NCBI GenBank assembly: GCA_020073705.1
Contig: JAIQES010000020.1
Coordinates: forward strand, 1 to 64,000
Origin: Terriglobia bacterium
GTDB taxonomy: Bacteria; Acidobacteriota; Terriglobia; Acidiferrales; UBA7541
Direction: 5' to 3'
Length of the DNA: 64,000 bases
In this document: piece by piece, positions 4,044-46,878 of the stretch
How the letters are laid out: every line of letters starts with the position of its first letter
How positions within the stretch are numbered: position 1 is the stretch's first letter
Program-made: the position numbers and the translations under genes
The notes under the pieces: generated by a model
What the model was told of the DNA's origin: nothing
Databases searched by the model: none
What the model saw: the letters and a program-made list of their open reading frames with translations, nothing else

Positions 4044-4056
4044 CTTTTTGCCCAAT

Positions 4057-28238: not shown

Positions 28239-28274
28239 ACTCCCTTCGGTTACATTTTAGACGGCGCGATACGA
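28239..28274 (+). repeat. 36-bp inverted repeat, left copy
   Basis: The 36 bases from ACTCCCTTCGGTTACATTTT to CGCGATACGA are an exact reverse complement of 46641-46676. A degenerate direct copy of part of it lies just before (28213-28235: GGTTACATCTTAAATGGCGCGA against GGTTACATTTTAGACGGCGCGA at 28250-28271), 37 bases apart. It ends 98 bases before the cupin start. It may be a shared promoter/operator or the end of an inserted segment. The rest of 28038-28238 shows nothing else. Confidence 0.9.
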
Positions 28275-28288
28275 TTGTATGCAAAAGC

Positions 28289-28307
28289 GCTTATGTGTAT
28301 CATAAGC
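28289..28307. promoter_or_regulatory. Palindromic operator candidate
   Basis: GCTTATGTGTATCATAAGC has perfect 7-base arms around five bases and sits 66 bases before the cupin gene. Related elements TATG-N6-CATA at 43584 and CCTATGTATAGG at 42959 lie 55-80 bases ahead of two other island genes. This would suit a GntR- or TetR-like regulator, none of which is encoded in the island. Confidence 0.5.
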
Positions 28308-28372
28308 CCGATTCGTGCGCCACCGAAGTGGCAGAGTGACTCGTCGCAGAATCGTTGGCCAGACCGAGGTGA

Positions 28373-29743
28373 ATGGACATGAGCGAATTCCTGGACGATC
28401 TATACAACGGAATCGTATCGCGACGCTCGTTTCTTGAAAAACTATCGGCGACCGCGGCGGGATTGCCGTTGCTAGCCGGCACAGTCGCCGGCGCAGCAGA
28501 GCCGCAGTCGGGCCATTCTCAGGCGGGTGCCAGCGCAGCCACTCTGAAAGGCACCGGCAAGCAAAAAGAGCTCGACATTGACCAACTGCCCGATGAAAAC
28601 CTTACGCTCAGTCCCTCGAATATCGGCGGCGGTGGACGGATCGAGCGTAACTTCTATCGCCGCTGGATTAAGTTCACGAAGATTCCCACTGTGGAGGGCT
28701 ATTCCATACTGGACGCGCGCACCCAGGAAGTCTTTCCGTGGCCGGAGGTGGAGGGGCGCGGCGTCTACCTGAACTTTTCTGGAAATGTTCACATGGATGG
28801 CGTGATCTACGAAATCCCGCCGGGTAAAGCTCTGGCCGCGCGGCACAACTTCTACGAGCAGAACCTGATAGGATTGACGGGCAGAGGCTATACCATCGTC
28901 GGCCAGGGCCGGCACGCCAATAAGGTGGAGTGGGGAGAGGGCAGTCTGCTTGCCGTGCCCTTGAACGCGGTCCATCGTCATTACAACGCTGATCCGGCAC
29001 ATCCGGCGCGTCTTTTGGCGATTACGAGTTTCCCGTTGATGCTGCAAATATTCGGCAGCCTTCGCCTAATCAATGATCTGCCGTTTGAGTTTACCAACCG
29101 TTACAATGGCTCGCCCGAATACTTCACCAAGAAGAGTCGGATCGCACAGCGCTGGGATGAGGCCAACTTCGTTCCTGACATGCGCGAGGCGGAACTGGTG
29201 GAGTGGTCCGAGCGTGGAGGGGGCGACCGCAGCTTCTTCTGGAAAATGGCTGGGCAGACGTTCCTGGAACCCCATGCGTCGGAATTTGAGATCGGTTCGT
29301 ACAAACTCGGGCACCGGCATCCCTACGAAGCCATTATCCTGACTCTGAACGGGAAGGGCTTTTCGCTTGCTGGCAAGGATGGCCTGGACGAATCAAAGTC
29401 GGTGAAATTAGACTGGCAAGCCGGCTCGATCATTTCTCCCCCGTTCTATTGGTGGCATCAACATTTCAACACCGGGCCAACTCCCGCCAGATATTTTGCG
29501 ATGACCGAAGGCGATTTCCCGAAGCGTCTCGGCATACCCTTGGACGTCCAGCAAATTGAGGCGAATGAGGAAGATCCTCGAATCAAGCAGCGGTTTGAAC
29601 AGGAGCTGAAAAAGGCGGGAATGGCGAAGGCAGATGTGCACCACAACCTGGACGAGAGCGACCATCCCGGCCATAGCCATAGTCACGGTCGCGGCCACAC
29701 ACACAGCCATGCTCACGATGGTGAGCACTCGCATGAGGTGTGA
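28373..29743 (+). CDS. Tat-exported cupin protein with His-rich C-terminal tail
   Basis: 456 residues. A twin-arginine signal SRRSFLEK (Arg17-Arg18) and a hydrophobic stretch ending AGAAEP predict export in folded form, usual for metalloproteins. Two cupin-like cores follow: around 130-235 (PPGKALAARHNFYEQNLIGL, HANKVEWGEGSLLAVPLNAV, HRHYN) and around 310-380 (GHRHPYEAIILTLNGKG, SIISPPFYWWHQHFN). Both have His clusters able to bind a metal. The last 30 residues are a His-rich tail (HSHSHGRGHTHSHAH-like). The nearest relatives I can think of are gentisate-dioxygenase-type bicupins, but identity is uncertain. It heads the plus-strand arm of the island, 98 bases from the left 36-bp repeat, and a nickel-type transporter follows. 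Confidence 0.75.
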   Translation: MDMSEFLDDLYNGIVSRRSFLEKLSATAAGLPLLAGTVAGAAEPQSGHSQAGASAATLKGTGKQKELDIDQLPDENLTLSPSNIGGGGRIERNFYRRWIKFTKIPTVEGYSILDARTQEVFPWPEVEGRGVYLNFSGNVHMDGVIYEIPPGKALAARHNFYEQNLIGLTGRGYTIVGQGRHANKVEWGEGSLLAVPLNAVHRHYNADPAHPARLLAITSFPLMLQIFGSLRLINDLPFEFTNRYNGSPEYFTKKSRIAQRWDEANFVPDMREAELVEWSERGGGDRSFFWKMAGQTFLEPHASEFEIGSYKLGHRHPYEAIILTLNGKGFSLAGKDGLDESKSVKLDWQAGSIISPPFYWWHQHFNTGPTPARYFAMTEGDFPKRLGIPLDVQQIEANEEDPRIKQRFEQELKKAGMAKADVHHNLDESDHPGHSHSHGRGHTHSHAHDGEHSHEV

Positions 29744-29827
29744 GGGCGGCACGGCCGATACGCACCAAACTCCTTGTGTGTTTGGCCACGGTGATTCGTT
29801 GTTGGCAGGCGTCTGGTTGTTGTAGCG

Positions 29828-30634
29828 ATGAACCTGATTAACTTTCTCTCCATCTTGGTGCTGGGATTTTTTCTCGGGATGCGGCACGCGACCGATCCCG
29901 ACCATGTCATCGCGATCACCACGATTGTGTCGCGATATCGGAGTGTAAGTTATGCGGCGGTGATTGGAATTCTTTGGGGCCTGGGCCATACGGTGACGAT
30001 TTTGGCCGTAGGCGGGAGCATCATTTTATTTGGATGGGTAATCCCAGTTCGGATCGGCCTCTCGATGGAATTTTCCGTTGCCTTGATGCTGATCCTGCTC
30101 GGAATTCTCAATTTGACGGGGATTCTCCAAACGCTAAGCGAGCAATTTATTCCGGGGCACGGGAAAATTCATTCCCATTCTCACCGCCATGGCGGGTCCG
30201 TTCATACCCATTTGCACGGGCATGATCCGCAAGCTCACCCTCATATGATCGGACAGACGCCCGTGAAAGCGAGCGATACACATTTCGGCTCGATGGGCAT
30301 CTATCATATGCTGCGCCCGGTGATTGTGGGCCTTGTACACGGCCTTGCGGGGTCTGCCGCCGTGGCACTGCTGGTTCTGGCAACAATTCGAAACCCGAAG
30401 TGGGCAGTTGCTTACCTCCTTCTGTTTGGAGTAGGAACCATGGTGGGCATGATGCTCATCACGATAGCGATGTCTCTGCCGTTTGCTCACACCGCGAAGA
30501 GCTTTCCTCACATGAACCGGGGATTCAGGATCGCCTCTGGGCTGCTGAGCCTGGGATTTGGTCTATTTCTGGTTTACCAAATTGGATTCGCAAACGGTCT
30601 GTTTACCAGCCATCCGATCTGGACGCCGAGGTGA
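29828..30634 (+). CDS. Nickel/cobalt transporter, NicO/HoxN-related
   Basis: 268 residues with six to seven membrane helices. The N-terminal signature GMRHATDPDHVIAI contains H-x4-D-H (His20, Asp25, His26), the metal-selecting motif of Ni/Co permeases. A cytoplasmic loop near 115-145 is strongly His-rich (HSHSHRHGG, HTHLHGHDPQAHPH), another hallmark. Further motifs are GILWGLGHTVTI and GLVHGLAGSAAVALL. It would carry Ni2+ or Co2+ across the inner membrane. It is 84 bases downstream of the His-tailed cupin, so both metal-binding proteins are probably one transcription unit. Confidence 0.85.
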   Translation: MNLINFLSILVLGFFLGMRHATDPDHVIAITTIVSRYRSVSYAAVIGILWGLGHTVTILAVGGSIILFGWVIPVRIGLSMEFSVALMLILLGILNLTGILQTLSEQFIPGHGKIHSHSHRHGGSVHTHLHGHDPQAHPHMIGQTPVKASDTHFGSMGIYHMLRPVIVGLVHGLAGSAAVALLVLATIRNPKWAVAYLLLFGVGTMVGMMLITIAMSLPFAHTAKSFPHMNRGFRIASGLLSLGFGLFLVYQIGFANGLFTSHPIWTPR

Positions 30635-30808
30635 CGCTTGTCGCCGCGGAACCCTCGCCGGTTCGCTGTGGTCTCAACTTGACGACGGGTCTTTTTTCCT
30701 ATCGGATGGATTAGATGATTTTCCGGGCTTTGTTCGCGCCCAGCATGGTAAGAGCTGTCGGTGCGGCCCCGCTCAGTCACGCATGGCTGCATGCACAAAG
30801 GAGGAACT

Positions 30809-32305
30809 ATGCAATTGGCAACAGCCGACCCAGGTGCGTCCCTGGTCGGGTACCGTGATCTGCGCGAGTGGCTTGCGGCCGTGGAGGCGATGGGCGAACT
30901 CAAGACGGTCCGGGGCGTGCCTTGGGATCGCGAAATGGGCGCTATGGTGGATATGGCCTATCGGGCCAAGGGCAGCGGCAAGTGTCCCGCCATTTTGTTT
31001 GACGATGTGCCGGGGTATCCTGCCGGCTACCGGTGTCTCTACGGCATGATGGCTTCGCCTCGCCGCTTTGCTTTTACCGTCGGAGGCATTGACGTAAAGA
31101 CCGCGCACAACAACATCGAGTACCTAAAGCAATACCGTGCTCGGATGAAGGACATCCAGTACATCCCGCCGGTCTTTGTGGATCGCAGTCCCATTTTCGA
31201 AAACGTGATGGAAGGAGACGATATTGACCTATTCAAGCTGCCCGTGCCCATCCATCACGAACTGGATGGCGGTCGTTACATCGGCACGGCGTGTGGCGTC
31301 ATCACGCGTGACCCCGACACTGGCGGGCTGAACTGCGGCACCTACCGAATCCAAGTCCACGATGCGAAGACGTGCACCTGCTACATCTCCCCGGGCAAAC
31401 ACGGGCGGCTTCACCGCGACCAATACTTTGAGCGCGGCCAGCATTGCCCGGCGGTCGCTGTCGTCGGCATAGATCCCATATTGTTCCTTGCGGCGCGCTA
31501 CCAGGTCCCCCCGGGACTGTCGGAGTTGGATTGGGTCGGCGGCATGCGCGGAGAGCCGCTCGGGGTGGTGCGCAGCAAGTACACGGATCTGCCGATTCCT
31601 GCGAACAGCGAAATCGTGCTCGAGGGCGAGTTCCGCGCCGACGAACGGCGCCTGGAAGGACCGTTCGGCGAGTGGCCGGGCTACTACGCGGGCGGAAAGA
31701 TGGAGGAACCTGTCTTCCGCATCAAGCGAGTCCTATTTCGCCATCAGCCGATCCTGACCTGCGCGGCTTCCATGAAACCTCCGCACGCTCACCTCTACGA
31801 GCGCGCGTTTACGCGCTCGGCAGCGTTGTGGGAAGGTCTCGAAAAGGCTTCCGTTCCCAACCTCGCTGGCGTGTGGGTGCATGAAGCGGGTGCCGGGCGC
31901 ACGTTCAACGTGGTCAGCATCAAGCAGCGGTACTACGGCCACTCCCGGCAAGCAGGACTGCTGGCCAGCCAGATGGTCCCGGTCGCCTACGGCAACCGCT
32001 GGACAATTGTGGTTGACGACGACATTGATCCATCCCGGCTCGAGGAAGTGATCTGGGCCATGGGCACGCGTTGCGACCCCAAGCAAGATCTGGAGATCAT
32101 GAGCAAATGCTGGAGCAGCAAGATTGACCCGATGGTTTTTGACCAGCACTACTACAACTCCCGGGTGGTCGTTGACGCGTGCATTCCTTACGAGCATCGC
32201 AACGACTTCTCTCGCGTGGCCGAAACCAGTCCGGAGTTGCGAGAAAAGATGCTCACGAAATATCGGCGCGATTTCCACGACCTTCTGGGCGAAGAGCTGG
32301 TCTGA
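30809..32305 (+). CDS. UbiD-family prenyl-FMN decarboxylase (copy 1)
   Basis: 498 residues from ATG 30809 behind AAAGGAGGAAC; an upstream in-frame ATG at 30761 lacks such a site. UbiD enzymes (de)carboxylate unsaturated or aromatic acids with prenylated FMN. The N-terminal domain (YRDLREWLAAVEAMGELKTV), the FMN/metal half (HHELDGGRYIGTACGVITRD, GTYRIQVHD) and the catalytic motif EGPFGEWPGYY are intact. Arg180, Glu283 and Glu288 correspond to the R173-E277-E282 set of fungal Fdc1. Nothing identifies the substrate. The amidohydrolase follows 48 bases downstream, so the pair may act in sequence. No ubiX (prenyl-FMN synthase) gene is nearby. Confidence 0.92.
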   Translation: MQLATADPGASLVGYRDLREWLAAVEAMGELKTVRGVPWDREMGAMVDMAYRAKGSGKCPAILFDDVPGYPAGYRCLYGMMASPRRFAFTVGGIDVKTAHNNIEYLKQYRARMKDIQYIPPVFVDRSPIFENVMEGDDIDLFKLPVPIHHELDGGRYIGTACGVITRDPDTGGLNCGTYRIQVHDAKTCTCYISPGKHGRLHRDQYFERGQHCPAVAVVGIDPILFLAARYQVPPGLSELDWVGGMRGEPLGVVRSKYTDLPIPANSEIVLEGEFRADERRLEGPFGEWPGYYAGGKMEEPVFRIKRVLFRHQPILTCAASMKPPHAHLYERAFTRSAALWEGLEKASVPNLAGVWVHEAGAGRTFNVVSIKQRYYGHSRQAGLLASQMVPVAYGNRWTIVVDDDIDPSRLEEVIWAMGTRCDPKQDLEIMSKCWSSKIDPMVFDQHYYNSRVVVDACIPYEHRNDFSRVAETSPELREKMLTKYRRDFHDLLGEELV

Positions 32306-32353
32306 TCTTCACGGGCACAGCAAGGCAATGCCAACAAAAAGGAGCATCGAACC

Positions 32354-33331
32354 TTGATCATTGATTTCCAGCACCACTACATTCCGCAAAAACTTGCCGA
32401 GCAGCATGGGGCGCGCCGGGGCGAGAAGGTAGTCCTTACCGAAGGCGGGACTCCCAAATTCACGATGCACGATCGCGTTTTCGATCTCCAGCAGCAACTC
32501 CGCGACTTGGAAGTGTCAGGCATGGACCTGGCCGTGCTCTCCTGCCCGTTGGGCTGGGATGCTTCGCTGGAGGATTGCCAGCGGATCAACGATGAGTACG
32601 CTGCGGTGCAGCAGGAACACGGAGATCATTTCGCGGGACTCGCGCACGTCCCGGTCCACGAAGGGAAGACAGCCCTGCGGGAATTGGACCGCGCCATCAC
32701 GCAGCTTGGCTTGCGTGGCGTCACAATCATGTCGCAAATTAAGGGAGCAACACTCGACGCGCCCGCTTTTCGGGAGTTCTTTGCGAAGACGGTCGAACTC
32801 GATATTCCCATCTTCGTGCATCCCGCGCTCGTGCCCCACGGCTACGCCCACGCGATGGATTACGACTTGATTCGGATCATCGGGCGGGAACTCGACCTCT
32901 CCCTAGCCGTAACCCGGCTGATCGCGGGTGGCGTCCTGGACGCATTCCCCGCGCTCAAGCTGGTGATGGCCCACTTCGGAGGAGGCATTGCCGCGATCAA
33001 GGAAAGATTAGTCAACAAAGCCTATCGCTTTGGCACGCGGCTATCGCGGCCGTTCGACGACTACTTCGGCCAACTCTATTTCGACATGGCCGGGTTCGAG
33101 GGAGGCCCCGCCGCGCTTCAGTGCGCCCTGACCGGGATTAAGCCGGAGCGGCTCGTTTTCGCCACCGACTATCCGCAAGATTTCACCGGTGTCGTCACGA
33201 ATACGGGAAAAGGATCGGCGCAGATTCGCGACTACATCCAGAGCGTTCGCGATTTGCCGTTGCCGGCAGCCGCGATTGAAGCCATGCTCGGAGGCACGGC
33301 GGCGCGGCTGCTGAAGCTCCGCGTTTCGTAG
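32354..33331 (+). CDS. ACMSD-like amidohydrolase (amidohydrolase_2)
   Basis: 325 residues from TTG 32354. It is a TIM barrel of the metal-dependent decarboxylase/hydrolase group that includes 2-amino-3-carboxymuconate-semialdehyde decarboxylase and resorcylate decarboxylases. The first strand reads DFQHHYIP: the usual H-x-H is Q-H-H, so the first metal His is Gln6 while His8 is kept. Other site residues are His in PIFVHPALVP (about 156), His in VMAHFGGG (about 214) and Asp in VFATDYPQD (about 275). It probably removes CO2 from, or hydrolyses, a ring-derived acid. It lies between two UbiD genes on the same strand. Confidence 0.88.
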   Translation: MIIDFQHHYIPQKLAEQHGARRGEKVVLTEGGTPKFTMHDRVFDLQQQLRDLEVSGMDLAVLSCPLGWDASLEDCQRINDEYAAVQQEHGDHFAGLAHVPVHEGKTALRELDRAITQLGLRGVTIMSQIKGATLDAPAFREFFAKTVELDIPIFVHPALVPHGYAHAMDYDLIRIIGRELDLSLAVTRLIAGGVLDAFPALKLVMAHFGGGIAAIKERLVNKAYRFGTRLSRPFDDYFGQLYFDMAGFEGGPAALQCALTGIKPERLVFATDYPQDFTGVVTNTGKGSAQIRDYIQSVRDLPLPAAAIEAMLGGTAARLLKLRVS

Positions 33332-33664
33332 GCGGGGCTCAGCACACGGCTGAGTAGACTCTTTCTGAGGCTAAGATTACGCGGCAGCAAGAGAGGCTCG
33401 TCAGACGGGCAAGAACGCGCTGTCGGAATCCCGCTGATCTCGCTGGGGGCTGCTCTGGTGGCAAATTTGTTGTCTTGAAGGTAGGAGACGCTTAAGATAC
33501 GCGAGCCAGAGGTCTAAATCGGGAATTCCGGATAAAACTATAAGCGCTGAACAGCAGATGCGTTGATTGCTCATGCAAGATTCCGATCGAGTAATTAGTC
33601 CTATAATTGGAAGTTATTGGCCGCGACTGACGCAATAATATCCGTATGGAGATCAGGAGGTCTC
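33332..33664. other. Spacer upstream of second UbiD
   Basis: About 330 bases without a gene. The AGGAGG ribosome site at 33655-33660 belongs to the next gene; an ATAAGC half-site resembling the 28289 palindrome lies near 33540. No repeat or RNA gene recognised. Confidence 0.4.
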
Positions 33665-35155
33665 GTGCACGATTTGCGCAATTGGTTGAAACAAGTCGAC
33701 GAGATGGGAGAGTTGAAGGTCATTTCCCAACCGCTCGACTGGAATGAGGAAACCTCGGCCCTGGATTATATGGTCAGCCAACGCGAAGGGGCGCCGGCAC
33801 TGTTATTCGAAAACATCAAAGGCGCTGCTCCGGGCTTTCGCGCCTTGTATAACCTGTTTGGGACCAGCAAGGAGCGTATTGCGGCTGCCTCTGGATTTCC
33901 TCGGGGCAAGAGCCTTACGGAGTTGATTCAGATAGTGCGCGACGGCTTTGGCACCAAAATCCCTCCCGTGAAGATTCCAGCCGAGCGAGCTGTGGTGAAC
34001 GAAAACGTGCTCCTCGAAGATAAGGCCGATATCACCATTTTCCCCGCGCCCAAGATGTGGCCTCTCGACGGGGGCCGGTACCTTGGAACTTGGGATCTTT
34101 TTGTCACCCGCGATTTGGAGGATGGCCATTTCAACGTCGGCACCTACCGCCAGATGGTCAAGGGCCCCAAGGAATTGTTTGTCTATTGGTCTCCGGGCAA
34201 GGATGCCCGGCTGCAAGCAGAGCGTTACTGGCAGCGCGGCCTCTCGTTCCCGGTAGCCGCCGTCTACGGCCCTGAACCGCTGATGTTTATGGTCAGTACC
34301 CAGACTCTGCCGAAGACAGAGTCGGAATATGATTACGCCGGAGGATTGGCCGGGCAACCTGTGGAAGTTTTCGAAAGTCCTGTTACAGGGCTCTTGCTGC
34401 CTGCCAATGCGGAGATCATTATTGAAGGCATGATGCGGCCTGGAAACAATGCGATGGAAGGGCCGTTCGGGGAGTTTACGGGATATTATGGCCGGCCCGA
34501 AGCCTCTACGCCGATCATTGATGTGAAGTGCGTTCGTTACCGCAACAATCCCATCCTCACTTGCGCGCTCATGGCAGACTATCCAGCTTGCGAACAGAGC
34601 CTGTTCTTCAGCATCGTTCGTTCCGCCGGGATCTGGGCCGACTTGCAAAAGCTTGGAATTCCGGGCATTCAGGGAGTGTTCGCCTTTCCGGAAGCCGCAG
34701 GTGGGTTTGGCGCCACGGCAGTCTCCATCGAGCAACGCTATGCCGGCCACGCTTCCCAAACCGCCGCTCTAACGGCTCAAGTGCCGGCCGGCGCCTATTA
34801 CGGCAAATACGTTATCGTAGTAGATGAGGACGTGGACCCGACTGACATTCATCAAGTTTTATGGGCGATGACCACACGCTCGGACCCCGCCACCGACATC
34901 GATATCTTGCGCTCGACCTGGTCCACCTACCTGGATCCTACCAAGAATCCTCCCGAGGAGCGCCCCTACGGCTCCAAGGCCTTGATCAATGCTTGTAAAG
35001 AGCACAAACATTTGAAGCAGTTTTCGAAGCGTTCCCGTTTACGGCGGGAAGTTTATGAAAGACTCGTCAAGCGGTGGAGTGAATTTGGTTTTAAGTTTCC
35101 GCCTCCCGTGATTCGCCATTTTGAGGAGGATGAGGCTTCCGCTGTCCGGAAGTAG
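33665..35155 (+). CDS. UbiD-family prenyl-FMN decarboxylase (copy 2)
   Basis: 496 residues from GTG 33665, chosen because AGGAGG lies just upstream and the protein then begins MHDLRNWLKQVDEMGELK, as other UbiD proteins do; the open frame reaches a TTG at 33617. Catalytic residues are Arg162 (FNVGTYRQM), Glu265 and Glu270 (MEGPFGEFTGYYG). FMN and metal loops are conserved (LDGGRYLGTWDLFVTRD, SPGKDARL). It is only distantly similar to the other three copies, so it should act on a different acid or be a different subunit. It ends the plus-strand arm and converges on the cytochrome c gene. Confidence 0.92.
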   Translation: MHDLRNWLKQVDEMGELKVISQPLDWNEETSALDYMVSQREGAPALLFENIKGAAPGFRALYNLFGTSKERIAAASGFPRGKSLTELIQIVRDGFGTKIPPVKIPAERAVVNENVLLEDKADITIFPAPKMWPLDGGRYLGTWDLFVTRDLEDGHFNVGTYRQMVKGPKELFVYWSPGKDARLQAERYWQRGLSFPVAAVYGPEPLMFMVSTQTLPKTESEYDYAGGLAGQPVEVFESPVTGLLLPANAEIIIEGMMRPGNNAMEGPFGEFTGYYGRPEASTPIIDVKCVRYRNNPILTCALMADYPACEQSLFFSIVRSAGIWADLQKLGIPGIQGVFAFPEAAGGFGATAVSIEQRYAGHASQTAALTAQVPAGAYYGKYVIVVDEDVDPTDIHQVLWAMTTRSDPATDIDILRSTWSTYLDPTKNPPEERPYGSKALINACKEHKHLKQFSKRSRLRREVYERLVKRWSEFGFKFPPPVIRHFEEDEASAVRK

Positions 35156-35259
35156 AATGAATCCGCGCGGGGAGTGATGTAATCCCGGTTGGTATGGGTT
35201 GGTAAGGGTGCTAAGGAGCTACTAAGATTCGTCCTTCCTATCGAACAGCGAAAACCTTG

Positions 35260-35883
35260 TCATTTCGCCGCAGGTTTTGCTTGATTCCAATAGGGTTGCC
35301 AGGTGCCGTCCTTATTCGGCGTTGATTGTGGGGGGTCAGGATAGAATCCATGACGATTCGGCATCTGGACCTCCGGCAGACTGTTCTTATCCATAACATC
35401 GATCTCTTTAATGATGCCGTTCCAGTAAAGCAGAAGGGCGGTCAGAGCGTAGATATTGTCTGGGGTGAGATTCTTCTCTAGGGGGAATGGCGGCATGGCG
35501 CGCTGGATGTAGTCCCAAATCGTCGTCGCATACGGCGAATAGCTCCCTACGGTTTGAACAGGGATAGGGGTGTTGAGTGTGCCTATGCCTCCCACCAAAC
35601 GCGGCCACGGGTATATGCCCTCTCCGTTTTTTCCATGACAAGCAGCACACTTGGCGGCATAGATCGTCTCGCCTTCCTTGGCAGTTCCGCGTCCGGGAGG
35701 GAGTTCCTTTCCGTCGGAACCTACAACACCATCCGAGGGGTGCAATTCTGCTTCCGTCGGCGCCCTCCCCACGTTATAGATAGGGAGCTGCGCCATGGCT
35801 GTCCCGCACGCCAACAGAACCATCACCGGCAATAGAAAATTAGATTTTGCCGCCAGAATAGTACGAGTTCTTTGACGGGCCAT
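35260..35883 (-). CDS. Exported c-type cytochrome partnering SoxC-like enzyme
   Basis: 207 residues from ATG 35883 (an in-frame ATG at 35928 is also possible). The N-terminus MARQRTRTILAAKSNFLLPV with a hydrophobic core to GTAMAQ is a signal peptide. One haem site C79-A-A-C-H83 is followed by a cytochrome-c fold; RAMPPFPLEKNLTPDNIYAL holds the probable Met axial ligand. The C-terminal region is long and Pro-rich. The gene overlaps the 3' end of the SoxC-like gene, the usual arrangement of sulfite dehydrogenase pairs (SorAB, SoxCD), so it should take electrons from the molybdenum enzyme in the periplasm. Confidence 0.88.
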   Translation of the reverse strand: MARQRTRTILAAKSNFLLPVMVLLACGTAMAQLPIYNVGRAPTEAELHPSDGVVGSDGKELPPGRGTAKEGETIYAAKCAACHGKNGEGIYPWPRLVGGIGTLNTPIPVQTVGSYSPYATTIWDYIQRAMPPFPLEKNLTPDNIYALTALLLYWNGIIKEIDVMDKNSLPEVQMPNRHGFYPDPPQSTPNKDGTWQPYWNQAKPAAK

Positions 35884-38695: not shown

Positions 38696-38770
38696 TGCTC
38701 ACCTGGCAATGGAACACACTTCCTGGCGATGGAAACCAACGCAGGCCCCTTCCAAAGCCAACGATTGAAT

Positions 38771-40351
38771 TTACCGGCCCGTGCGAGCCAATACTTCGAC
38801 CCAGCCATGCATCCGCTGTTTCGCTCGCTCGACATCGGACTTCGAGAAGAATTTCAAGGGATCAACCCTGTCCACCGGATAGACGGGCCGATGAAAGTCC
38901 TGTTCGAAACCATAGGGCACCGTCGCGTCAACACCCATGCCGCCCTCGAAGCGGGTATTCGAGGCGGTCCATTCCCGCTCGCCGGCCGTCATGCGCTCCT
39001 GCGGCTGGAACGTCTGCCCAATGCCACCCGGCAGGGGATTCAGAATATCGGTGTGGGGATTTACGCGTGTGGTCAGGCACCACATGATGTCGTCCATGCT
39101 GTAGATATCCACATCGGGACTCACGGCGATTGCCAGTCGCATTCCCTGATTGCACGCCAGAATGGCTGCCAGGAAGTTGCGTTGCCAGCCCTCCTCGATC
39201 TTGTTGCGCTTCTTGACCTGGATGATGACTCCGCCCCAGTCCGTCATGCAGTAGGGGATGTTGACATCCTGAATGATGCCGGGTTGCAGACGCTCGCAGA
39301 GCTCGTAGATGGCCGCCTCACGGAGTGTCGTATCAATGTTGCTGTCGTCAGCGGTATGAACGCCCAGCGGAAAAATGATCGGTCTGCTACTGCGCTTTCG
39401 CATCGTAATCGCGGTCACGTGGAACGTCGGCGCTTTGTACGCCTTGCCCATATAGCCGGCCCATTCCGGATGAAAGAAGTGCTTGCCTTGCACGCCTGCT
39501 TTTTCTGCTTCGGCCGTTTCGTAGCGCTTATCTCTTGGGTGCAGCAAACCTTCCAGCACATATTCCGATTCGGCGATGGCGTACGCATCCACCGTGCGCG
39601 CCTTCACGATCTTCACGGGACTGCCTTGGATAGCGCCGGCGACGCCCACTTCGTCACAACCTTTTGGCAGAATTACGTAGTCAAAGCCCGACCCCGCGAC
39701 CAGCGTGCACGCCGGAGGGACTCCGAAACACATCGTGAGGGGAATTGGCTTCTCGTCCTTGTAATGTTCGGTGATGATTTGCCACATGTGGGAACCCGGA
39801 GAGGCCTGGAAGGTGCCCACGTTCCCCCAGCGAAAATTCATCCGGTTGTAACCGATGTGGCTGCCGCCGCCGAAATAATCTCCGATGACGCAACTGATCC
39901 CGCTCCCAACGGTCAGCTCCGGCTCCAGCGCCGTATGACGAATGGCGGTGATGTACTTGTTGACATCCAGATCGTCGGTAATAACCTCTTCCTGGCATGG
40001 GGCTTCACTCTGCTGAATTTCGACCGGCGGAACGGGGTGCGTCATCGCGCGGGCAATGTGTTTGGTGCGGTTCTGCGGGCCTTGAAAACCGAACAGCTTA
40101 TCCACCACGTGGATGTCCGCCAGAAGGTTCGTAATGGCGCGCGCATGGGGCTTTCCTTTCACCTTGTTGAACAGCAGCACAGGGCCCCCGTCCAAGTGCT
40201 TCTGCAGGCCGGTGATCTCCAGATCGGGATCCACCTCCACGTCGGTCTTCAGAACGTCGCCCTGCGCATCCAGCCACTCCAGGGCTGAACGGAGGGAAGT
40301 AATATCTTTTTTCGTCTCCGCTTTTGGTGTTTCGCTTCTGACTATGGACAC
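38771..40351 (-). CDS. Divergent UbiD-family decarboxylase (copy 3), candidate aroyl-CoA decarboxylase
   Basis: 526 residues, the longest of the four copies. UbiD landmarks are present: NVKG-type loop FNKVKGKPHA, GISCVIGDYFGGGSHIGYNR, SPGSHMW and a C-terminal DIMWCLTTRVNPHTDI. Arg170 (GYNRMNF) aligns with the catalytic Arg. The catalytic motif is altered: where the other copies have EGPFGEW, it reads HFFHPEW, keeping the second Glu (Glu296) but with His291 in place of the first, after an insertion of about 20 residues. It lies between the MFS and a CoA-transferase gene in one operon, as expected of a phthaloyl-CoA-decarboxylase-like enzyme acting on a CoA thioester. Confidence 0.88.
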   Translation of the reverse strand: MSIVRSETPKAETKKDITSLRSALEWLDAQGDVLKTDVEVDPDLEITGLQKHLDGGPVLLFNKVKGKPHARAITNLLADIHVVDKLFGFQGPQNRTKHIARAMTHPVPPVEIQQSEAPCQEEVITDDLDVNKYITAIRHTALEPELTVGSGISCVIGDYFGGGSHIGYNRMNFRWGNVGTFQASPGSHMWQIITEHYKDEKPIPLTMCFGVPPACTLVAGSGFDYVILPKGCDEVGVAGAIQGSPVKIVKARTVDAYAIAESEYVLEGLLHPRDKRYETAEAEKAGVQGKHFFHPEWAGYMGKAYKAPTFHVTAITMRKRSSRPIIFPLGVHTADDSNIDTTLREAAIYELCERLQPGIIQDVNIPYCMTDWGGVIIQVKKRNKIEEGWQRNFLAAILACNQGMRLAIAVSPDVDIYSMDDIMWCLTTRVNPHTDILNPLPGGIGQTFQPQERMTAGEREWTASNTRFEGGMGVDATVPYGFEQDFHRPVYPVDRVDPLKFFSKSDVERAKQRMHGWVEVLARTGR

Positions 40352-40377
40352 GCGCCGTGCTCCTTTTCATCCTGACT

Positions 40378-41673
40378 TTACTTTGCGGATGCCAACCCAC
40401 ATCTTACAGTTTTCGAATCTATTGAAAAATAGAGAATGACCATGGCCAAGTTCACCACGCTGATGAATCCGAATGCGCCCAGATAGCGGCCACGAAAATG
40501 AGCGATCAGAAAACCGATTATCGTGGGGGCTAGCCCACCGATTAAGTTTCCGATCCCCACGAAAATTCCGGTGGCGCGCCCAATTTGCTTTGGGAGCGCC
40601 AGCGATTGCATGATGGAAGCGTTCATGGCTCCGTAAATCATAGGAGCGGCTAAAGACGTAACCAGCAAGAGTACGGACGCGATAGCGCTGGAAACAGCCA
40701 CAGAGGCTAAAATCAGGGCGGCGACCACTGCGCTGGTAAGAGTGCCCACCAGCGCGGGTCGCATCGTTCGATCCGCAAAGTATCCCAGCCCCAAGGACAC
40801 CACGATCGGCAACGTATAGCTCAATGCCACCCATCCTCCGAGGGCACTGAACGGAATCCCGCGCACCTGCGTCAGATAGGTCGGAATCCAAGTCGTCAGA
40901 CCGAATAGCGTGGCCACCGCGCCCACATGGCAAAGCGTGACGACCCAAAATTCGAAATTGGCGAGCAGCGACCCAAGCTTGATCGAGCGCCCAGCGTGGA
41001 TTTCCTCAGGCTCAGTTGCGGGAAGACTAACGATGTGCTCGCGTTCCTCGCGATTGGCACGGCCGGATTGCGCCGGTGTATCCGGGGCCAGAAACAACAG
41101 CATGGGCATTAAAACCAGGACTGACCCAGCACCCAGCGCCCAGAAGACCACACGCCACCCGCCTAATGAAATCAGGAGAGTCGCCGCAGGCAGGCCGAGG
41201 GCGAGCCCCACCTGATTGCCATTGACCCAAAGGGACTGGATGCGGCCCCGCTCACGAATGGGGAACCAGCGTCTTGCGTATGTATTGCATACCGGCCAAA
41301 TGCATCCCTCGGTGAGCCCGAGCACGAAACGAGCGGCGTAAAGCTCGCTGACACTATGACTGACCGCGCACCACATGGTCGTCAGCGCCCATCCGCACAC
41401 ACCGAACATCGCCGCGCGACGCGGGCCCAGATGGTCCACGACAAATCCCCATACCAGAAGTCCCCCACCGTAACCGATAAAGAAAATCGTGGATAGGAAT
41501 CCCATGCGCGCCTGCTGGCCCATAAGCGTCATATCGGAAAGAAACTTTCGGTCGGCAAGAACCACGGCGATGTTCGTCTTATCGAGCTGGTTGACGACGA
41601 CAAGCATAAACAGCGTCGGCGCGACATACAACCAGCGCGCGGCGGTGCGCTTCGCTCCTGGCATTGATGTCAA
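40378..41673 (-). CDS. MFS transporter, anion:cation symporter (ACS) type
   Basis: 431 residues and 12 predicted membrane helices. The start (LYVAPTLFMLVVVNQLDKTN followed by VVLADRKF) and the loop GFVVDHLGPRRAAMFGVCGW are those of the ACS branch, which imports organic anions such as phthalate, tartrate, glucarate and hydroxybenzoates. LTEGCIWPVCNTYARRWFP is another ACS motif. It overlaps the CoA-transferase gene at 41670-42881 by four bases and is followed by the divergent UbiD 26 bases away, so it most likely imports the acid that those enzymes activate and decarboxylate. Confidence 0.9.
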   Translation of the reverse strand: MTSMPGAKRTAARWLYVAPTLFMLVVVNQLDKTNIAVVLADRKFLSDMTLMGQQARMGFLSTIFFIGYGGGLLVWGFVVDHLGPRRAAMFGVCGWALTTMWCAVSHSVSELYAARFVLGLTEGCIWPVCNTYARRWFPIRERGRIQSLWVNGNQVGLALGLPAATLLISLGGWRVVFWALGAGSVLVLMPMLLFLAPDTPAQSGRANREEREHIVSLPATEPEEIHAGRSIKLGSLLANFEFWVVTLCHVGAVATLFGLTTWIPTYLTQVRGIPFSALGGWVALSYTLPIVVSLGLGYFADRTMRPALVGTLTSAVVAALILASVAVSSAIASVLLLVTSLAAPMIYGAMNASIMQSLALPKQIGRATGIFVGIGNLIGGLAPTIIGFLIAHFRGRYLGAFGFISVVNLAMVILYFSIDSKTVRCGLASAK

Positions 41674-42881
41674 GAGAACACGCCCTGTTCCTGCAATCGC
41701 TGAAATTCCTCCGGCGGGAGCCCTAGCAACGATTGGAAGACAAACGAGTTGTGTTCGCCCAAACAGGGAGCGGGGCGCCGAATCCCGCCCGGCGTTTCAT
41801 CCAATTGGTAGGAGACCATGCGATAGTGATGCAGCCCCATTTCCGGATGTTCCATCTCCTGAAAGATTCGGCGGGAGGCGATCTGCGGGTCGGAAAAAAG
41901 GTCCCGCATCGTATTCACCGCGGCAGCATGGATTCCGCGATTTTGCAGCAGTGCCATCACCGCATGTGCGTCCATGTCTCGCGTCCAGTCTCCGATCAAT
42001 TTGTTTAATGAGGTCTCGTGCTGTTTCCGTTGTGAGAGGGAATGAAAGCGCTCATCGGAAAGCCACGACGGCTGGCCGGCGGCGTGACAAAACTTGGTCC
42101 ACTCCTCGTCATCCCAGCAACTGATCACGCACCAGTGGCCATTGCGGCAAGGGTAACACCCATGTGGCGCGGCAGCGGGATCGCGATTGCCTGCACGATC
42201 CTCGACAACACCATTGCCTGAATAATCCAGCAGCGCACTGCCGAGAAACTGCAAGCCCGCCTCATATTGAGACAGGTCAATGTAGACGGACTTATTCGTC
42301 CGCCGCTGGTGGTCCAGCGCGGCTAGAATTGCGGCGCCCCCGAACGCTACCGCGATGAAATCAACATAGGGTCCGTAAATAAACTGCGGTGGCCCGTCCG
42401 GTTCACCGATGAAGTGGGTAAAACCACACAAAGACGACAGTTGCGTTCCGAAACCCGGATGGCGCGCATAGGGGCCCGTTTGGCCCATGTTGCTCGTGCT
42501 CAGCATAACCAGAGAGGACTTGCGCTCGCGCAGCGTCTGATACCCCAGGCCTAACCTGGCCACCACCCCGGGCCGCATATTTTCAATGACCACGTCGGCC
42601 CAGTCCACCAGACGGTACGCCAGAGCGAGCCCGTCGGGATGCTTGATATTGAGCGTCACGCCGTACTTGGAGTCGTTAAAAAACGCGAAGCACCCCGAAA
42701 GGTTTAGGCCGACTTTGCCGTTCCTATAGGGCGGATATTGCAGGCGAAAACCATCCGGGCGGTCCTGGGATTCCAGATGAACGACCTGCGCGCCGAAATT
42801 TGCGAGATACTTGCCGATACAAGGCCCGGCGGCATAGCCGCCAAGTTCGAGAACCTTCAGATTTTGGAGGGCATCTTTCAT
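41670..42881 (-). CDS. Family III CoA-transferase with Glu at the catalytic position
   Basis: 403 residues of the CaiB/BaiF family: LKVLELGGYAAGPCIGKYLA, NFGAQVVHLESQDRPDGFR, KYGVTLNIKHPDG, ENMRPGVVARLGLGY and VYIDLSQYEAG. The residue matching catalytic Asp169 of formyl-CoA transferase is Glu207; a carboxylate is kept, so it may be the active partner of the Ala-containing transferase at 37454-38695. It starts the minus-strand operon CoA-transferase, MFS, UbiD, CoA-transferase and overlaps the MFS gene by four bases. The likely reaction is CoA transfer from succinyl-CoA or a similar donor to an aromatic or unsaturated acid. Confidence 0.9.
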   Translation of the reverse strand: MKDALQNLKVLELGGYAAGPCIGKYLANFGAQVVHLESQDRPDGFRLQYPPYRNGKVGLNLSGCFAFFNDSKYGVTLNIKHPDGLALAYRLVDWADVVIENMRPGVVARLGLGYQTLRERKSSLVMLSTSNMGQTGPYARHPGFGTQLSSLCGFTHFIGEPDGPPQFIYGPYVDFIAVAFGGAAILAALDHQRRTNKSVYIDLSQYEAGLQFLGSALLDYSGNGVVEDRAGNRDPAAAPHGCYPCRNGHWCVISCWDDEEWTKFCHAAGQPSWLSDERFHSLSQRKQHETSLNKLIGDWTRDMDAHAVMALLQNRGIHAAAVNTMRDLFSDPQIASRRIFQEMEHPEMGLHHYRMVSYQLDETPGGIRRPAPCLGEHNSFVFQSLLGLPPEEFQRLQEQGVFS

Positions 42882-42957
42882 CGAAACATCCGGAGGCTCC
42901 CCGGAAGATATGTTGCTCGCGCTGCATGCGAAGATTCGCGCCCTTCCAACCTGATGA

Positions 42958-42972
42958 GCCTATGTATAGGGC
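42958..42972. promoter_or_regulatory. Operator-like palindrome upstream of CoA-transferase
   Basis: GCCTATGTATAGGGC has near-perfect GCC(C)TAT/ATAGGGC arms and lies 77 bases before the CoA-transferase start at 42881. It shares TATGT with the palindromes at 28289 and 43584. Confidence 0.4.
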
Positions 42973-43051
42973 CTCTGACAAAGGCTGGCTAGTTGGCTGG
43001 TTGAAAGCCAAAATCAGTTGGAACGGCACTCGTCGGCATTGCCATTCCTGC

Positions 43052-43528
43052 CTATTCGACAAGCTCCCGCAAGAGCTTTTTCTGTTCCATGGGATCCGCG
43101 CGCCGTTTGTACAGAATGGCGCTGGTAACGTACGATCCCGGTTCATACTCCTCATTGGCTTCGTCGGCCAGCACCTGCTCGACGCGACAGTTGAACTTGG
43201 CATTCTGAGGCGAGCAAATCATTTCTCCCGCCAGTTCCTCGACGGTGCCCTTGATGTAGTAAGCGACCCGCTCATCAACGATCACAATCGAAAGCTTGCC
43301 ATTTCTTCGCATGTTGTTCGTGGTGGTGGTATTGCCATACACCGCGAGCCGGATATTGCGATCATCTTTGGCGATCACTTCAAAATAGCTGAGCATCGCG
43401 GGATGCGGCCACCCGCCGGCATCCACTGTGCAAATGACAATCGCCTTTTCGGCGTGCGTCTGCAGATCGCTACCTGCCAGCCGCTGATACAGGTCCGCGG
43501 GCAATTTGTTTCCGACGACTTTGCTCAT
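43052..43528 (-). CDS. PNPOx-fold (pyridoxamine 5'-phosphate oxidase-like) flavin/cofactor-binding protein
   Basis: 158 residues of split-barrel fold: KAIVICTVDAGGWPHPAMLS (strand pair and cofactor loop), RLAVYGNTTTTNNMRRNGKL, SIVIVDERVAYYIKGTVEEL and CRVEQVLADEANEEYEPGSY. Proteins of this class bind FMN, F420 or haem and include flavin reductases and oxidases; true PNPOx residues for pyridoxal phosphate are not evident. It is a single gene between the CoA-transferase operon and the DASS transporter, with an operator-like palindrome ahead. A role in redox handling of a pathway intermediate or flavin supply is inference. Confidence 0.8.
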   Translation of the reverse strand: MSKVVGNKLPADLYQRLAGSDLQTHAEKAIVICTVDAGGWPHPAMLSYFEVIAKDDRNIRLAVYGNTTTTNNMRRNGKLSIVIVDERVAYYIKGTVEELAGEMICSPQNAKFNCRVEQVLADEANEEYEPGSYVTSAILYKRRADPMEQKKLLRELVE

Positions 43529-43583
43529 ATCTTACTCCCTGCTGTGATCACTACGGTTTCCCTCTTTGTTGCTTTGCGATTCG

Positions 43584-43597
43584 TATGTGTAATCATA
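43584..43597. promoter_or_regulatory. Operator-like palindrome upstream of PNPOx-fold gene
   Basis: TATGTGTAATCATA (TATG-N6-CATA) lies 55 bases before the gene start at 43528 and matches the core TATGTGTATCATA of the 28289 palindrome with one inserted base. Confidence 0.45.
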
Positions 43598-43619
43598 GGC
43601 TCATCCAATTGGAACAGCA

Positions 43620-45059
43620 CTAGCGGATTCCGATGAGCGGCCAGTAAAACGGCACGAGCAGCAGCAACACCAGAGACTCCACGATCGTTAAGCACAGCCC
43701 CACTCGAAACAAATCCCGGGCCTCGAAATACCCGTATGAGTAACCCGTAACTATTACCCCCGATTGGTACACAAAGATTTTCCCGCCCGCCGCAAACGCC
43801 CAGACCAGCCCGAGCGGCAGCACCGCCAAACCATTCGATTTGGCGAAATCCATTAGCGGAGGGATGGACGTAGCGATCGTCGAGAGTTCACTCCCTAAAA
43901 AGATGTGATAGACGAACGCCGTCCAATACGGCACGAGCGCTGTAGTAAAGCCATTGGTAATGAGCGGTCGCATCCAGGCGAACATGACCGTGGTCATGGC
44001 TTGCAGCGCTTTGGTCTGCATTAACACGATGCCCATGCTGATCGCTGCGCCCGTGAAGATGATCGGGGAGTAGTTGACCCGTTTCAAATCCTCCTCGTTG
44101 AGCACTCCGATGCCGGGGACAGCCGCAAGCAATCCAATGCCGATACCAATCACCGCGGGAGAGATGTGGTGAAGCAGATCGGTGGCCCACAACGCGATCG
44201 CCACGAGCATCAAGAACAGCGATTTCTTCTCGGTGAAGCTCCACGGCCCCATCTTCTTCAGTTCACTGTCGAGGAACGCTGCCCCTTCCTCCAGGGCCTC
44301 GTTCTCCGGCGGGTAGAGCCACAACACCAACCGCCAGGTGAAGAAAATCACGACCACTGCAACAGGGAAAAACGCCAGCAGCCAGACGCTCCAGTAAACC
44401 TCAATACCCGTCGCCTTCTGGATCAGACCACGGCCGAGGATGGTAGTGGCGCCGGCCATGACGATCTTGTCGAACATGCCCGCCGTGTAGGTCAACGTTA
44501 TAAACAGTCCTCGCCCGATATTGCTGCCGGTTCCCAGGCCGAAGACTTGCATCAGCCCGAGCGCGACCGCGGCCATGATGACTACGCAGGCCATTCCCGA
44601 AGGCACAAGAAACGTCAGCACGAACGATGTGAGTATCAACCCCAGGAGCAGGCGCGAGTAACTGGCTCCCACGCGCCGCAAGACAAGATATGCCAGGCGG
44701 CGAGCCAAGCCCGACTTCGTGGCCATGATGCCGAGCAAACTTGCGCCGAACAGGAACCAGGTCGTGGAATCGGTGAATCCGGAGAATGCGGATTCCAGCC
44801 GCACAATCTTGAAGATCCAGAAGAAATAACACCCCAACAGTCCTGTGATTGCAAACGGCAGAATCTCCGAGATCCACGCGATGATCATAAAGGACGCAAC
44901 CGCCAGGGCGTGCTTGGCCGTTGCCTCCAGCCGAAGAGGCGCAAACCACAACGCCACCGGCACGGCGATCGCCAGCAAATATCCAGCCAGTTTCCGGGGA
45001 GACCTCAGGAACCCTCCAGCTTTCCCGAAGTCCTCTGCTGCCGGAACTCCGTTCGCCAT
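43620..45059 (-). CDS. DASS/SLC13-family divalent anion:Na+ symporter
   Basis: 479 residues with about 11-12 membrane segments. Typical features are ISEILPFAITGLLGCYFFWI, the first re-entrant loop region with FGASLLGIMATKSGLARRLA, a second repeat with FTGAAISMGIVLMQTKALQA and SELSTIATSIPPLMDFA near the C-terminus, where DASS proteins carry SNT/TP-type substrate motifs (here altered). The family imports dicarboxylates, sulfate and similar anions with Na+. Its ATG overlaps the stop of the upstream UbiD gene (TGATG at 45059), so it is translationally coupled to that decarboxylase, suggesting a shared substrate. Confidence 0.88.
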   Translation of the reverse strand: MANGVPAAEDFGKAGGFLRSPRKLAGYLLAIAVPVALWFAPLRLEATAKHALAVASFMIIAWISEILPFAITGLLGCYFFWIFKIVRLESAFSGFTDSTTWFLFGASLLGIMATKSGLARRLAYLVLRRVGASYSRLLLGLILTSFVLTFLVPSGMACVVIMAAVALGLMQVFGLGTGSNIGRGLFITLTYTAGMFDKIVMAGATTILGRGLIQKATGIEVYWSVWLLAFFPVAVVVIFFTWRLVLWLYPPENEALEEGAAFLDSELKKMGPWSFTEKKSLFLMLVAIALWATDLLHHISPAVIGIGIGLLAAVPGIGVLNEEDLKRVNYSPIIFTGAAISMGIVLMQTKALQAMTTVMFAWMRPLITNGFTTALVPYWTAFVYHIFLGSELSTIATSIPPLMDFAKSNGLAVLPLGLVWAFAAGGKIFVYQSGVIVTGYSYGYFEARDLFRVGLCLTIVESLVLLLLVPFYWPLIGIR

Positions 45060-46534
45060 CAGAGTTTTCCTTTAGTCTGCACGGATGCCGTCGTGCCTTT
45101 CGGATTGGGCTGTGCAAGTATGGCGCCCCACTTCTTTTCGGCCGCGCGGCGGACCTCCGGACTAGATTCCGCTACAGGCGGAAAATCCTTGAGCCACTCG
45201 TACGGACGGCATGCATCAATGACCGCGCGTGAACTGTGGCCCTTTTGTCCCTTCGGAATGATCGGATCGAGCACGCCGCTCCAACTGCGGCGAACAATCT
45301 CAATATCCAGCTCGGGATTGGATCGCGTTGTGAGCGCCCACAACACATCATTGATATTTGTGACGTCAATGTCATCATCCACTACAATGACATACCGGCC
45401 CAAGTAAGCGCCGGAGTGGCAATAGGCGGCGATCATGCCCGCCTGGCGCGCATGGCCCGGATAGCGTTGCTTGATCGAGACGAAGGTCAGCAGCCGGCTT
45501 CCTCCCGCCTCGTGACACCATACGCCACGCACGTCGGGCACACCTGCGGCCTCCAGTTCCTGCCACACCATCGCCGATCGCATATAGCAGCGCATGTAGT
45601 TGAACTCGCACGGGGGGCGAGTGGGAGGCGCGCCGAGAAGGATTGGGTTATTCCGATGGTAGAGCCGCTTGACCTTCATGGTGGGCTCCGGCCTCATCGA
45701 ACTGGCGTAATACCCGGTCCACTCGCCAAACGGACCTTCGTCACGATCCTGGCCGGGAATCGCTTCGCATTCGACAACGATTTCCGAGTTGGCCGGTATT
45801 GGCAAGCCAGTATATTCTCCTTGAATCACTTGAACGGGATGCCCTTGGAGTCCGCCCACCCAATCGTACTCGGATACACCATGCGGAATTTCCATGCCGC
45901 CCGCCAGAAACAACAGGGGATCGTGCCCGAACGAAACGGCCACCTTGCAGGGCTGGCCTTTTGCGAAATATTTCTCCCGCATGATGCGGCCATGTTTCCC
46001 CGGGGAGATATAAAAGCCCAACGTATCGTTGTCGTGTACCATCACGCGATACGTTCCGACGTTAACCCAGCCGTCGTCCGGGTCCCGCGTGATATCCACC
46101 GAGCCGGTCCCGATATAGCGCCCTCCGTCCAACTCATGCCATTTGGGCGTCGGAAACTTCAACATATCAATCGCTTTGCCCTCGAAGACGTTTTCCATGA
46201 CCGGCCCGTCTCGGACAAACTCGGGCGGAATGTATTTGACGTCAGAAATGTGGCGTTTGATGTCTTTAACGAATTCAATGCGTGAATAGTTTGTGTCCAT
46301 GTAAAGCGTCATCGCCAGCCGCTTAAGCGTGTTCAGCGTGTTGGACAGCACGCGGAAACCTGGCGGGTATCCTTTGATGTTGTCAAAGAGCAGGGCAGAG
46401 CTATCTTCTCCGCGATGGTGGCCCAGTTCGGTGATCGCTCCGATCTCGACGTCCCAATCGGCTCCGTCAATGTGTTTAAGTTCACCCAGTTCTTCCGCAC
46501 TCTGCATCCAACCACGCAAATCTCGAGATGACAT
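45059..46534 (-). CDS. UbiD-family prenyl-FMN decarboxylase (copy 4)
   Basis: 491 residues from ATG 46534, preceded by GGAGGAGACCAGG; an in-frame upstream start at 46567 lacks a good site. The full triad is conserved: Arg163 (VNVGTYRVMVHD), Glu266 and Glu271 (DEGPFGEWTGYYAS). It resembles copy 1 along its length (RDLRGWMQSAEELGELKHID, ELDGGRYIGT, YISPGKHGR, KQRYPGHARQAG) more than copies 2 or 3, so copies 1 and 4 are probably paralogues. It opens the right-hand operon with the DASS transporter and lies 106 bases from the right 36-bp repeat, mirroring the cupin at the left end. Confidence 0.92.
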   Translation of the reverse strand: MSSRDLRGWMQSAEELGELKHIDGADWDVEIGAITELGHHRGEDSSALLFDNIKGYPPGFRVLSNTLNTLKRLAMTLYMDTNYSRIEFVKDIKRHISDVKYIPPEFVRDGPVMENVFEGKAIDMLKFPTPKWHELDGGRYIGTGSVDITRDPDDGWVNVGTYRVMVHDNDTLGFYISPGKHGRIMREKYFAKGQPCKVAVSFGHDPLLFLAGGMEIPHGVSEYDWVGGLQGHPVQVIQGEYTGLPIPANSEIVVECEAIPGQDRDEGPFGEWTGYYASSMRPEPTMKVKRLYHRNNPILLGAPPTRPPCEFNYMRCYMRSAMVWQELEAAGVPDVRGVWCHEAGGSRLLTFVSIKQRYPGHARQAGMIAAYCHSGAYLGRYVIVVDDDIDVTNINDVLWALTTRSNPELDIEIVRRSWSGVLDPIIPKGQKGHSSRAVIDACRPYEWLKDFPPVAESSPEVRRAAEKKWGAILAQPNPKGTTASVQTKGKL

Positions 46535-46635
46535 CCTGGTCTCCTCCCCAATTCGGCCAGCATCCAATAGCGGCTCCGAGAGAATCCGCTGCGCCGGGCG
46601 GCGCTTATCTTACTCTAAAGTAGCGGCTAGAGTCT

Positions 46636-46878
46636 TTAACTCGTATCGCGCCGTCTAAAATGTAACCGAAGGGAGTTTTGAACCCAGTTGATTGCTCCTG
46701 GGCCGTTCGTCGCGACAAAAATCGCAATGGGAATCATCAGGTCAGAGAACCAGCGAAGGCCGCGGGCAAAATCCCGCCATGGCACTTCGCCGCGCCGCAG
46801 AAATATAAGCGAAACACCGTGCGCCACCACGACCAGCGCACCAAAGAAATCGCTGTAAACGGCCAGTATGCAAACCAC
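46636..46878 (-). CDS. Hypothetical membrane protein, apparently truncated at the island border
   Basis: A frame opening at GTG 46878 encodes about 80 residues with two membrane segments: VCILAVYSDFFGALVVVAHG continuing into VSLIFL, and FSDLMIPIAIFVATNG. Between them lies RRGEVPWRDFARGLRWF. The last 13 residues (LRLHFRRRDTS-like) are encoded by the right 36-bp repeat, so the natural C-terminus seems to have been replaced there. It could be a real gene fragment cut when the island formed, or a fortuitous frame. No family recognised. Confidence 0.4.
   Translation of the reverse strand: MVCILAVYSDFFGALVVVAHGVSLIFLRRGEVPWRDFARGLRWFSDLMIPIAIFVATNGPGAINWVQNSLRLHFRRRDTS
46641..46676 (-). repeat. 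36-bp inverted repeat, right copy
   Basis: Exact reverse complement of 28239-28274, from TCGTATCGCGCCGTCTAAAA to CCGAAGGGAGT. It ends 106 bases before the ATG of UbiD copy 4, in the same orientation relative to that gene as the left copy is to the cupin gene. Confidence 0.9.

Follow-up and report, generated by a model that had tools for sequence, protein, structure and literature searches.

The window analysed here is a stretch of 64,000 nucleotides from the genome of a Terriglobia bacterium (contig JAIQES010000020.1, positions 1 to 64,000). Its central part carries a block of catabolic genes, which by their Pfam domains comprise four UbiD genes, two CoA-transferase III genes, an Amidohydro_2 gene, a SoxC-like molybdoprotein with a cytochrome c, transporters of the MFS and Na/sulphate types, a cupin and NicO. 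The block is enclosed by two 36-nt arms on opposite strands, which are exact reverse complements of each other (100% over all 36 nt). The perfect inverted repeat is real and far above chance; by our own naive estimate about 1e-12 inverted repeats of any 36-mer are expected in 64 kb. A preliminary description of the locus had reported the repeat, its distances of 98 and 106 nt to the outermost genes and the gene content between and around the arms, and all of these agree with the present analysis. Both arms are the R ends of separate, decayed copies of one insertion sequence (IS) family, the R end being the one on the 5' side of the transposase gene. In this family, elements sit in one fixed orientation next to a predicted sigma70-type promoter, with 5 bp between the R end and the downstream -35 box.

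The insertion sequence family and its transposase

Further copies of the repeat are present in the host genome (3.79 Mb, 78 contigs) on contigs C25, C40 and C56, the first of them at the very start of the contig. A 149-nt query showed similarity between the left copy in the window and that on C40 over about 136 nt. The 36-mer is thus what both window copies happen to have kept of a longer repeat. The arms contain a 22-nt core, for which 151 related genomes were searched. This 22-mer was found in 32 of them, often many times in a genome and often no more than about 130 bp away from the end of a contig, and such multiplicity and closeness to contig ends form the pattern of a collapsed mobile element. 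No copies of the 22-mer were found in the genus mates of the host.

The architecture of the R end is constant across the loci: ...GGTTACATCTTAAATGGCGCGA-N13-GGTTACATTTTAGAYGGCGCGA-TACG, followed by the flank. The transposase gene starts inward of it, and a second, inverted end (L end), ...GGTTACATTTCAAATGGCGCGA-N13-GGTTACATTCTTARATGGCTTGACANG and then flank, is found about 1.2-1.3 kb further. The R end thus has two 22-nt repeats 35 bp apart, with a matching pair at the L end. Intact elements in the relatives are about 1.3-1.4 kb long and have the general features of an insertion sequence, namely one transposase gene, of the rve-type DDE class, between terminal repeats with 5-bp target-site duplications. 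The position of the duplications places the termini at CGTATC... and ...TTGACANG.

Evidence of transposition comes from duplications and empty sites. At least 14 loci carry the 5-bp duplication, always at one constant position beyond the L end; it reads TATAC in L053, for instance, and CCGTT in L048. In the multi-copy genome G006, six of the eight R-end flanks pair by 5 bp with an L-end flank on another contig (AATCC/GGATT etc.). The empty sites predicted by joining such paired flanks are present in two sister species (G018 and G028), where the sequence is continuous across the junction and contains the promoter. The best example is L162/L173 compared with G018, with ACCGACG-GTTCA-TTGACA in both and a single GTTCA where the IS is absent. 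The presence of promoters at empty sites indicates that the promoter existed before the insertion. At the level of sequence, these comparisons establish the identity of the IS, its duplications and the pre-existence of the predicted promoters.

Two further observations concern the ends. The L terminus (e.g. L053, L048, L161-L177) ends in CTTGACANG, a perfect -35-like hexamer facing outward, which may serve in hybrid promoters or as a landing site. At locus L070 the R end lies 5 bp away from the L end of another copy.

The transposase is about 390-430 amino acid residues long and has an integrase (rve) core, which is matched by Pfam rve at E-values of 2e-5 to 2e-7, just under the gathering score. 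The residues around the catalytic Glu are EQKNWTHVR, and Val at position E+7 is invariant in 31 sequences (HIEQKNWTHVRKL). When one genome per GTDB species was scanned, 298 relatives of the transposase were found, and the best 80 of these were kept; the 80 are distributed over Acidobacteriota, Rokubacteria, Nitrospirota, Elusimicrobiota, Chloroflexota, Hydrogenedentota, Verrucomicrobiota and other phyla. The AlphaFold model (mean pLDDT 79) consists of N-terminal helices followed by the catalytic core, and the core superposes on the catalytic domains of retroviral integrases with a Z-score of 13.5 and an rmsd of 3.3 over 135 residues. Foldseek matches of the whole model had low TM-scores and were not used, so that only the match of the catalytic core is considered. 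A sequence search of the PDB with the transposase gave no match.

Promoter register at the insertion sites

In a first set of 50 copies from the scan, TTG was located at +6..+8 of the R-end flank in 32 and almost never at other nearby offsets, and TAnnnT was found at +29 or +30 in 40. The full set consists of 93 distinct R-end flanks from many phyla, taken from the scan and from genomes of the family, and random positions in the same flanks (2000 draws) served as background. TTG at +6..+8 occurs in 58 of the 93 flanks (62%), compared with 1.2% at random positions (maximum 5.4%). TAnnnT with a spacer of 16-18 bp occurs in 74 (80%), compared with 1.8% (maximum 6.5%), and the commonest spacer, 17 bp, is found in 60. 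The mean match to TTGACA peaks at +6 only, 16.7 standard deviations over background, and that to TATAAT at +29, 14.2 standard deviations over background. Neither TTG nor an in-register TAnnnT was found in the L-end flanks (0/20 for each). The -10 element is still in register in 24 of the 35 R-end flanks that have no TTG, which suggests that the register is a property of the whole promoter. The fixed orientation and the register are thus shown, at the level of sequence, by the flanks themselves.

The predicted target promoters include those of the non-coding RNA genes rnpB (RNase P RNA), tRNA-Leu and tRNA-His, and of the protein genes rplU (L21), rplS (L19), tig (trigger factor) and a CDP-alcohol phosphatidyltransferase. 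A PurQ-like amidotransferase (purQ) and an ATP-grasp protein of the SucC type (sucC) are also among the targets. A second subgroup, with ends GAGTCAATTCG (R-end flanks L125, L141, L144 and L146), is inserted 15-16 bp upstream of the -35 box. Its promoters have the form TTGAC-N16/17-TATANT, and the insertion lies about one helical turn beyond the distance of the main group.

The distance to the downstream open reading frame was not used as a statistic because it has no power, random positions in the GC-rich flanks giving 77%. The proposal that the R end is longer and itself carries the -35 and -10 elements is contradicted by eight near-identical copies in G006 with unrelated flanks.

The copies in the window and in the host genome

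The features of the two window copies are collected in Table 1. Neither copy is intact, the start of the transposase in the left one being interrupted by a stop; about 130 nt of R-end sequence survive in the left copy and 35 nt in the right. The inner 22-mer of the left copy is a second, slightly different version of the 22-nt core of the arm. Base 28274 is outside the IS end and matches the right arm by chance.

Table 1. Features of the two IS relics and their targets in the window
Feature	Position	Strand	Remarks
Transposase N-terminus remnant	28142..28181	-	MG*KAKWEYFRAIL, compared with intact MGNKGRWEYLRAIY; stop codon interrupts
Inner R-end 22-mer, GGTTACATCTTAAATGGCGCGA	28213..28234	+	35 bp upstream of the outer 22-mer
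Left arm of 36-bp inverted repeat	28239..28274	+	28239-28273 is the IS R end; terminus ...GATACG at 28273 by alignment with other copies
Outer R-end 22-mer, GGTTACATTTTAGACGGCGCGA	28248..28269	+	35 bp from the inner one
Position matching target-site duplication, ATTGT	28274..28278	+	By register with other loci; partner copy lost
Targeted promoter position, left (predicted)	28279..28306	+	ATGCAA-N16-CATAAG, weak; alternative -10 TATCAT at 28298-28303
Cupin-domain gene downstream of left IS end	28373..29743	+	Pfam; ATG 28373
UbiD-family decarboxylase gene downstream of right IS end	45059..46534	-	ATG 46534, ribosome-binding site GGAGGAG
Targeted promoter, right, in register (predicted)	46607..46636	-	AAGACT (46631-46636)-N18-TAAGAT (46607-46612); from sequence
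Position matching target-site duplication, AGTTA (minus strand)	46637..46641	-	Partner copy lost
Right arm of 36-bp inverted repeat	46641..46676	-	46642-46676 is the IS R end, all that is left of the IS
Outer R-end 22-mer, right copy	46646..46667	-	22-mer search

With the three copies on other contigs, the host genome contains five R-end relics. The C40 copy also matches residues 1-35 of the transposase at 54% identity. Only one L-end relic was found, at G000:C13:89489-89512 on the minus strand (locus L231, GGTTACATTCTCAGATGGTTTGAC), and its inner repeat is decayed. Solo L ends are seen in the relatives too, and the excess of R ends was therefore not adopted as proof of selection. Two of the five R-end relics pass the strict promoter test, those of the right arm and of C25 (TTGCAT with TACGTT). 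The predicted promoter at the left arm is weak or decayed, and the one at the right arm is in register. The promoter-region DNA of the two window copies is conserved in none of 88 genomes of the family, so that the empty sites described above are those of relatives.

Two other repeats of the window were seen. Segments 33444-33536 and 63252-63344 form an inverted pair of 93 nt, 77% complementary and 29.7 kb apart. Two similar segments of 65 nt, 3982-4046 and 18887-18951, resemble the starts of tRNA genes with similar upstream sequence.

Origin of the arms and choice of target

The arms are very probably the R ends of decayed copies of a promoter-targeting IS, inserted in the promoter regions of two convergent operons. 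According to the mechanism that we propose, the IS would always insert the same way round, leaving exactly 5 bp between its R end and a downstream sigma70-type -35 box and producing a 5-bp duplication. The core promoter would be left intact and the transposase would be transcribed away from the target gene. Two such insertions may have struck the promoter regions of the two operons, 18 kb apart, and later deletions would have left little of either element beyond its promoter-side end. The distance of about 100 bp to each gene, in the same orientation to it, would be explained because the IS entered the promoter of that gene. The inverted geometry would follow because the two target operons are convergent, insertions of the same orientation then becoming an inverted repeat. 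Insertion could be tolerated even at essential genes because the core promoter is untouched.

Several points weigh against this explanation. Neither promoter element is seen under the strict criterion at 11 of the 93 sites. Among the host relics, C56 fits the register only with a shift of 1 bp, the -10 that goes with TTGCAA at C40 is less clear, and the left window promoter fails the strict test. The L ends of both window copies are gone, so that their target duplications lack partners. The target promoters are predicted, and recognition of a promoter complex is deduced from sequence alone.

The preliminary description had proposed that the arms are the terminal repeats of an inserted segment. 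They are indeed ends of mobile elements; the extent is different, each arm belonging to an IS of about 1.4 kb that points away from the block of 18 kb. Insertion or transposition of the block as a unit, as a composite transposon or genomic island, would account for a perfect inverted repeat around it and for R ends that face it on both sides, as in a composite element. DNA-level homologues of the outermost genes are also absent from the five genus mates tested, and the block is accessory. Nevertheless, such an origin is very improbable. The bodies of the two elements extended outward and no L ends were found outside the arms, and the 5 bp on the inner side of each arm are unlike (ATTGT and AGTTA). 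Two complete IS, a shared outer duplication and a clean empty site, as looked for in a composite transposon, were not found. Synteny with three genus mates is lost at 25826, within the flank, and in one of them it does not return before about 49.8 kb, at a conserved FTHFS gene, which indicates that the arms are not the borders of the block. The region 25827-49790, with no DNA-level synteny to the genus mates and with conserved sensor kinase and response regulator genes to its left and FTHFS to its right, defines how far the variable region around the catabolic genes really reaches. The GC content is even throughout and flat across the arms. We estimate a chance of about 10% that two of five copies fall within 18.4 kb in a genome of 3.8 Mb, so that a particular connection with the catabolic block need not be assumed.

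The other proposal, a promoter unit at both ends, stands in so far as each arm abuts a promoter region; the predicted promoter is host DNA, and the 36-mer itself is transposon DNA. In its developed form this explanation takes the 22-mers as selected binding sites of a regulator of both operons, possibly through exaptation of a relic end. The position of all copies just upstream of -35 boxes would suit it, as would the retention of tandem 22-mers while the remaining IS decayed and the five R ends in the host against a single L-end relic. Several of the downstream genes in the host genome are hydrolases or catabolic. However, in relatives these ends flank intact transposase genes and are accompanied by target duplications, and the genus mates have no copies. 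Copies elsewhere that bear no relation to the genes of the block, which the preliminary description had named as a refutation, do occur: in the host the repeat precedes genes for an esterase-like protein, a further amidohydrolase and a protein resembling a sigma factor, and in relatives unrelated housekeeping genes (rplU, rplS, tig, rnpB, tRNA). The sites are thus neither limited to functionally related promoters nor separate from a mobile element, as expected of a regulon module, and we consider this explanation unlikely.

If the arms are promoter-targeted insertions, the manner in which the promoter is recognized has to be considered. The transpososome may recognize it through the bound RNA polymerase holoenzyme, by contact with sigma region 4 or the alpha-CTD. 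We infer this from the conservation of the -10 element despite a weak -35, from the housekeeping promoters that are hit, and from the second subgroup located one helical turn further. The choice of target would then be made through the promoter complex, with holoenzyme at -35 and -10, and not by the -35 sequence alone, as a safe-site strategy. The main rival to such docking is direct reading of the -35 hexamer (TTGAC) in DNA by the transposase, the in-register -10 resulting from selection against other insertions. Most of the information is in fact in the -35 positions (T 86%, T 75%, G 80%). This alternative is possible and rather doubtful, the in-register -10 being present in 80% of the sites and also in most of those without TTG, and the second subgroup being placed a helical turn away from the -35 box, not beside it.

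It is useful to compare this family with known elements. Among IS, specificity for dif, res and attTn7-like sites is known. The closest parallel in behaviour is the ISAjo2 group of the IS1202 family, with an IS of about 1.5 kb, a DDE transposase near 400-450 residues and an extra internal repeat near each end; its insertions lie 5 bp away from the XerC site in dif-like (pdif/dif) sites, have a single orientation and carry 5-bp duplications (PMC10132070). The present family is similar in element and transposase size, internal repeats, duplication length, fixed orientation and the 5-bp distance from a protein-bound site, but its target is a sigma70 promoter (-35/-10) instead of dif. The hallmarks of IS1202 are Gln at E+7 and outer ends 5'-TGT and ACA-3' (PMC10132070). 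Both were tested in the present family, which has Val at E+7 and outermost bases CG.../...AGG. It is therefore not placed in IS1202, being set apart by the published description of that family.

By sequence, the nearest annotated elements are the ISNCY / ISBj12-like transposases of rhizobial plasmids, to which the transposase is homologous with 40.8% identity over 95% of the query. Near their ends these elements carry repeats in pairs and a motif, TGCG/TACG, that resembles the terminus, but the sequence beyond this motif is common to both ends, which are thus built otherwise. The rhizobial relatives L148-L155 were set aside because their differently built ends are not comparable. Loci L148, L149, L151, L154 and L155 share a sequence (about CTCATCCTGATTGTCGCGCYATAA) after the motif, which suggests longer terminal repeats or another recurrent target. 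The best NCBIfam match of the transposase is the IS481 profile NF033577 (E-value 1.7e-10), at 40.9 bits compared with a curated cut-off of 224, so by that test it is not a member of IS481. Mobile promoters and IS with outward promoters also place IS sequence beside gene promoters, as far as work cited in PMC9208149 is described there. The present family differs in that the promoter is predicted to be that of the host and to pre-exist, and is not brought by the IS.

The search of the open-access literature found no IS described as promoter-targeting, nor any account of an IS family choosing sigma70 promoters with base-pair precision, which is no proof of absence. The yeast retrotransposons Ty1 and Ty3 insert at safe sites upstream of Pol III genes. 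They resemble the present family in integrating at a fixed distance upstream of transcription units and leaving the gene intact; the present family differs as a bacterial DNA transposon at sigma70 promoters, for which contact with the polymerase is presumed. On balance we lean towards a widespread IS family that docks on the holoenzyme-promoter complex at a fixed distance, either 5 bp or one turn further. It would be a bacterial counterpart of Ty and the first promoter-hunting IS family.

The result calls for caution in reading perfect inverted repeats around gene blocks, because convergent operons that each receive a promoter-targeted insertion can give rise to them. If the proposed mechanism is true, a tool for programmed insertion ahead of active promoters might be derived from it. 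Each IS end would also be a natural marker of a core promoter, allowing promoters to be mapped in uncultured phyla without transcription data. It would also explain how these IS persist beside essential genes without the death of the host.

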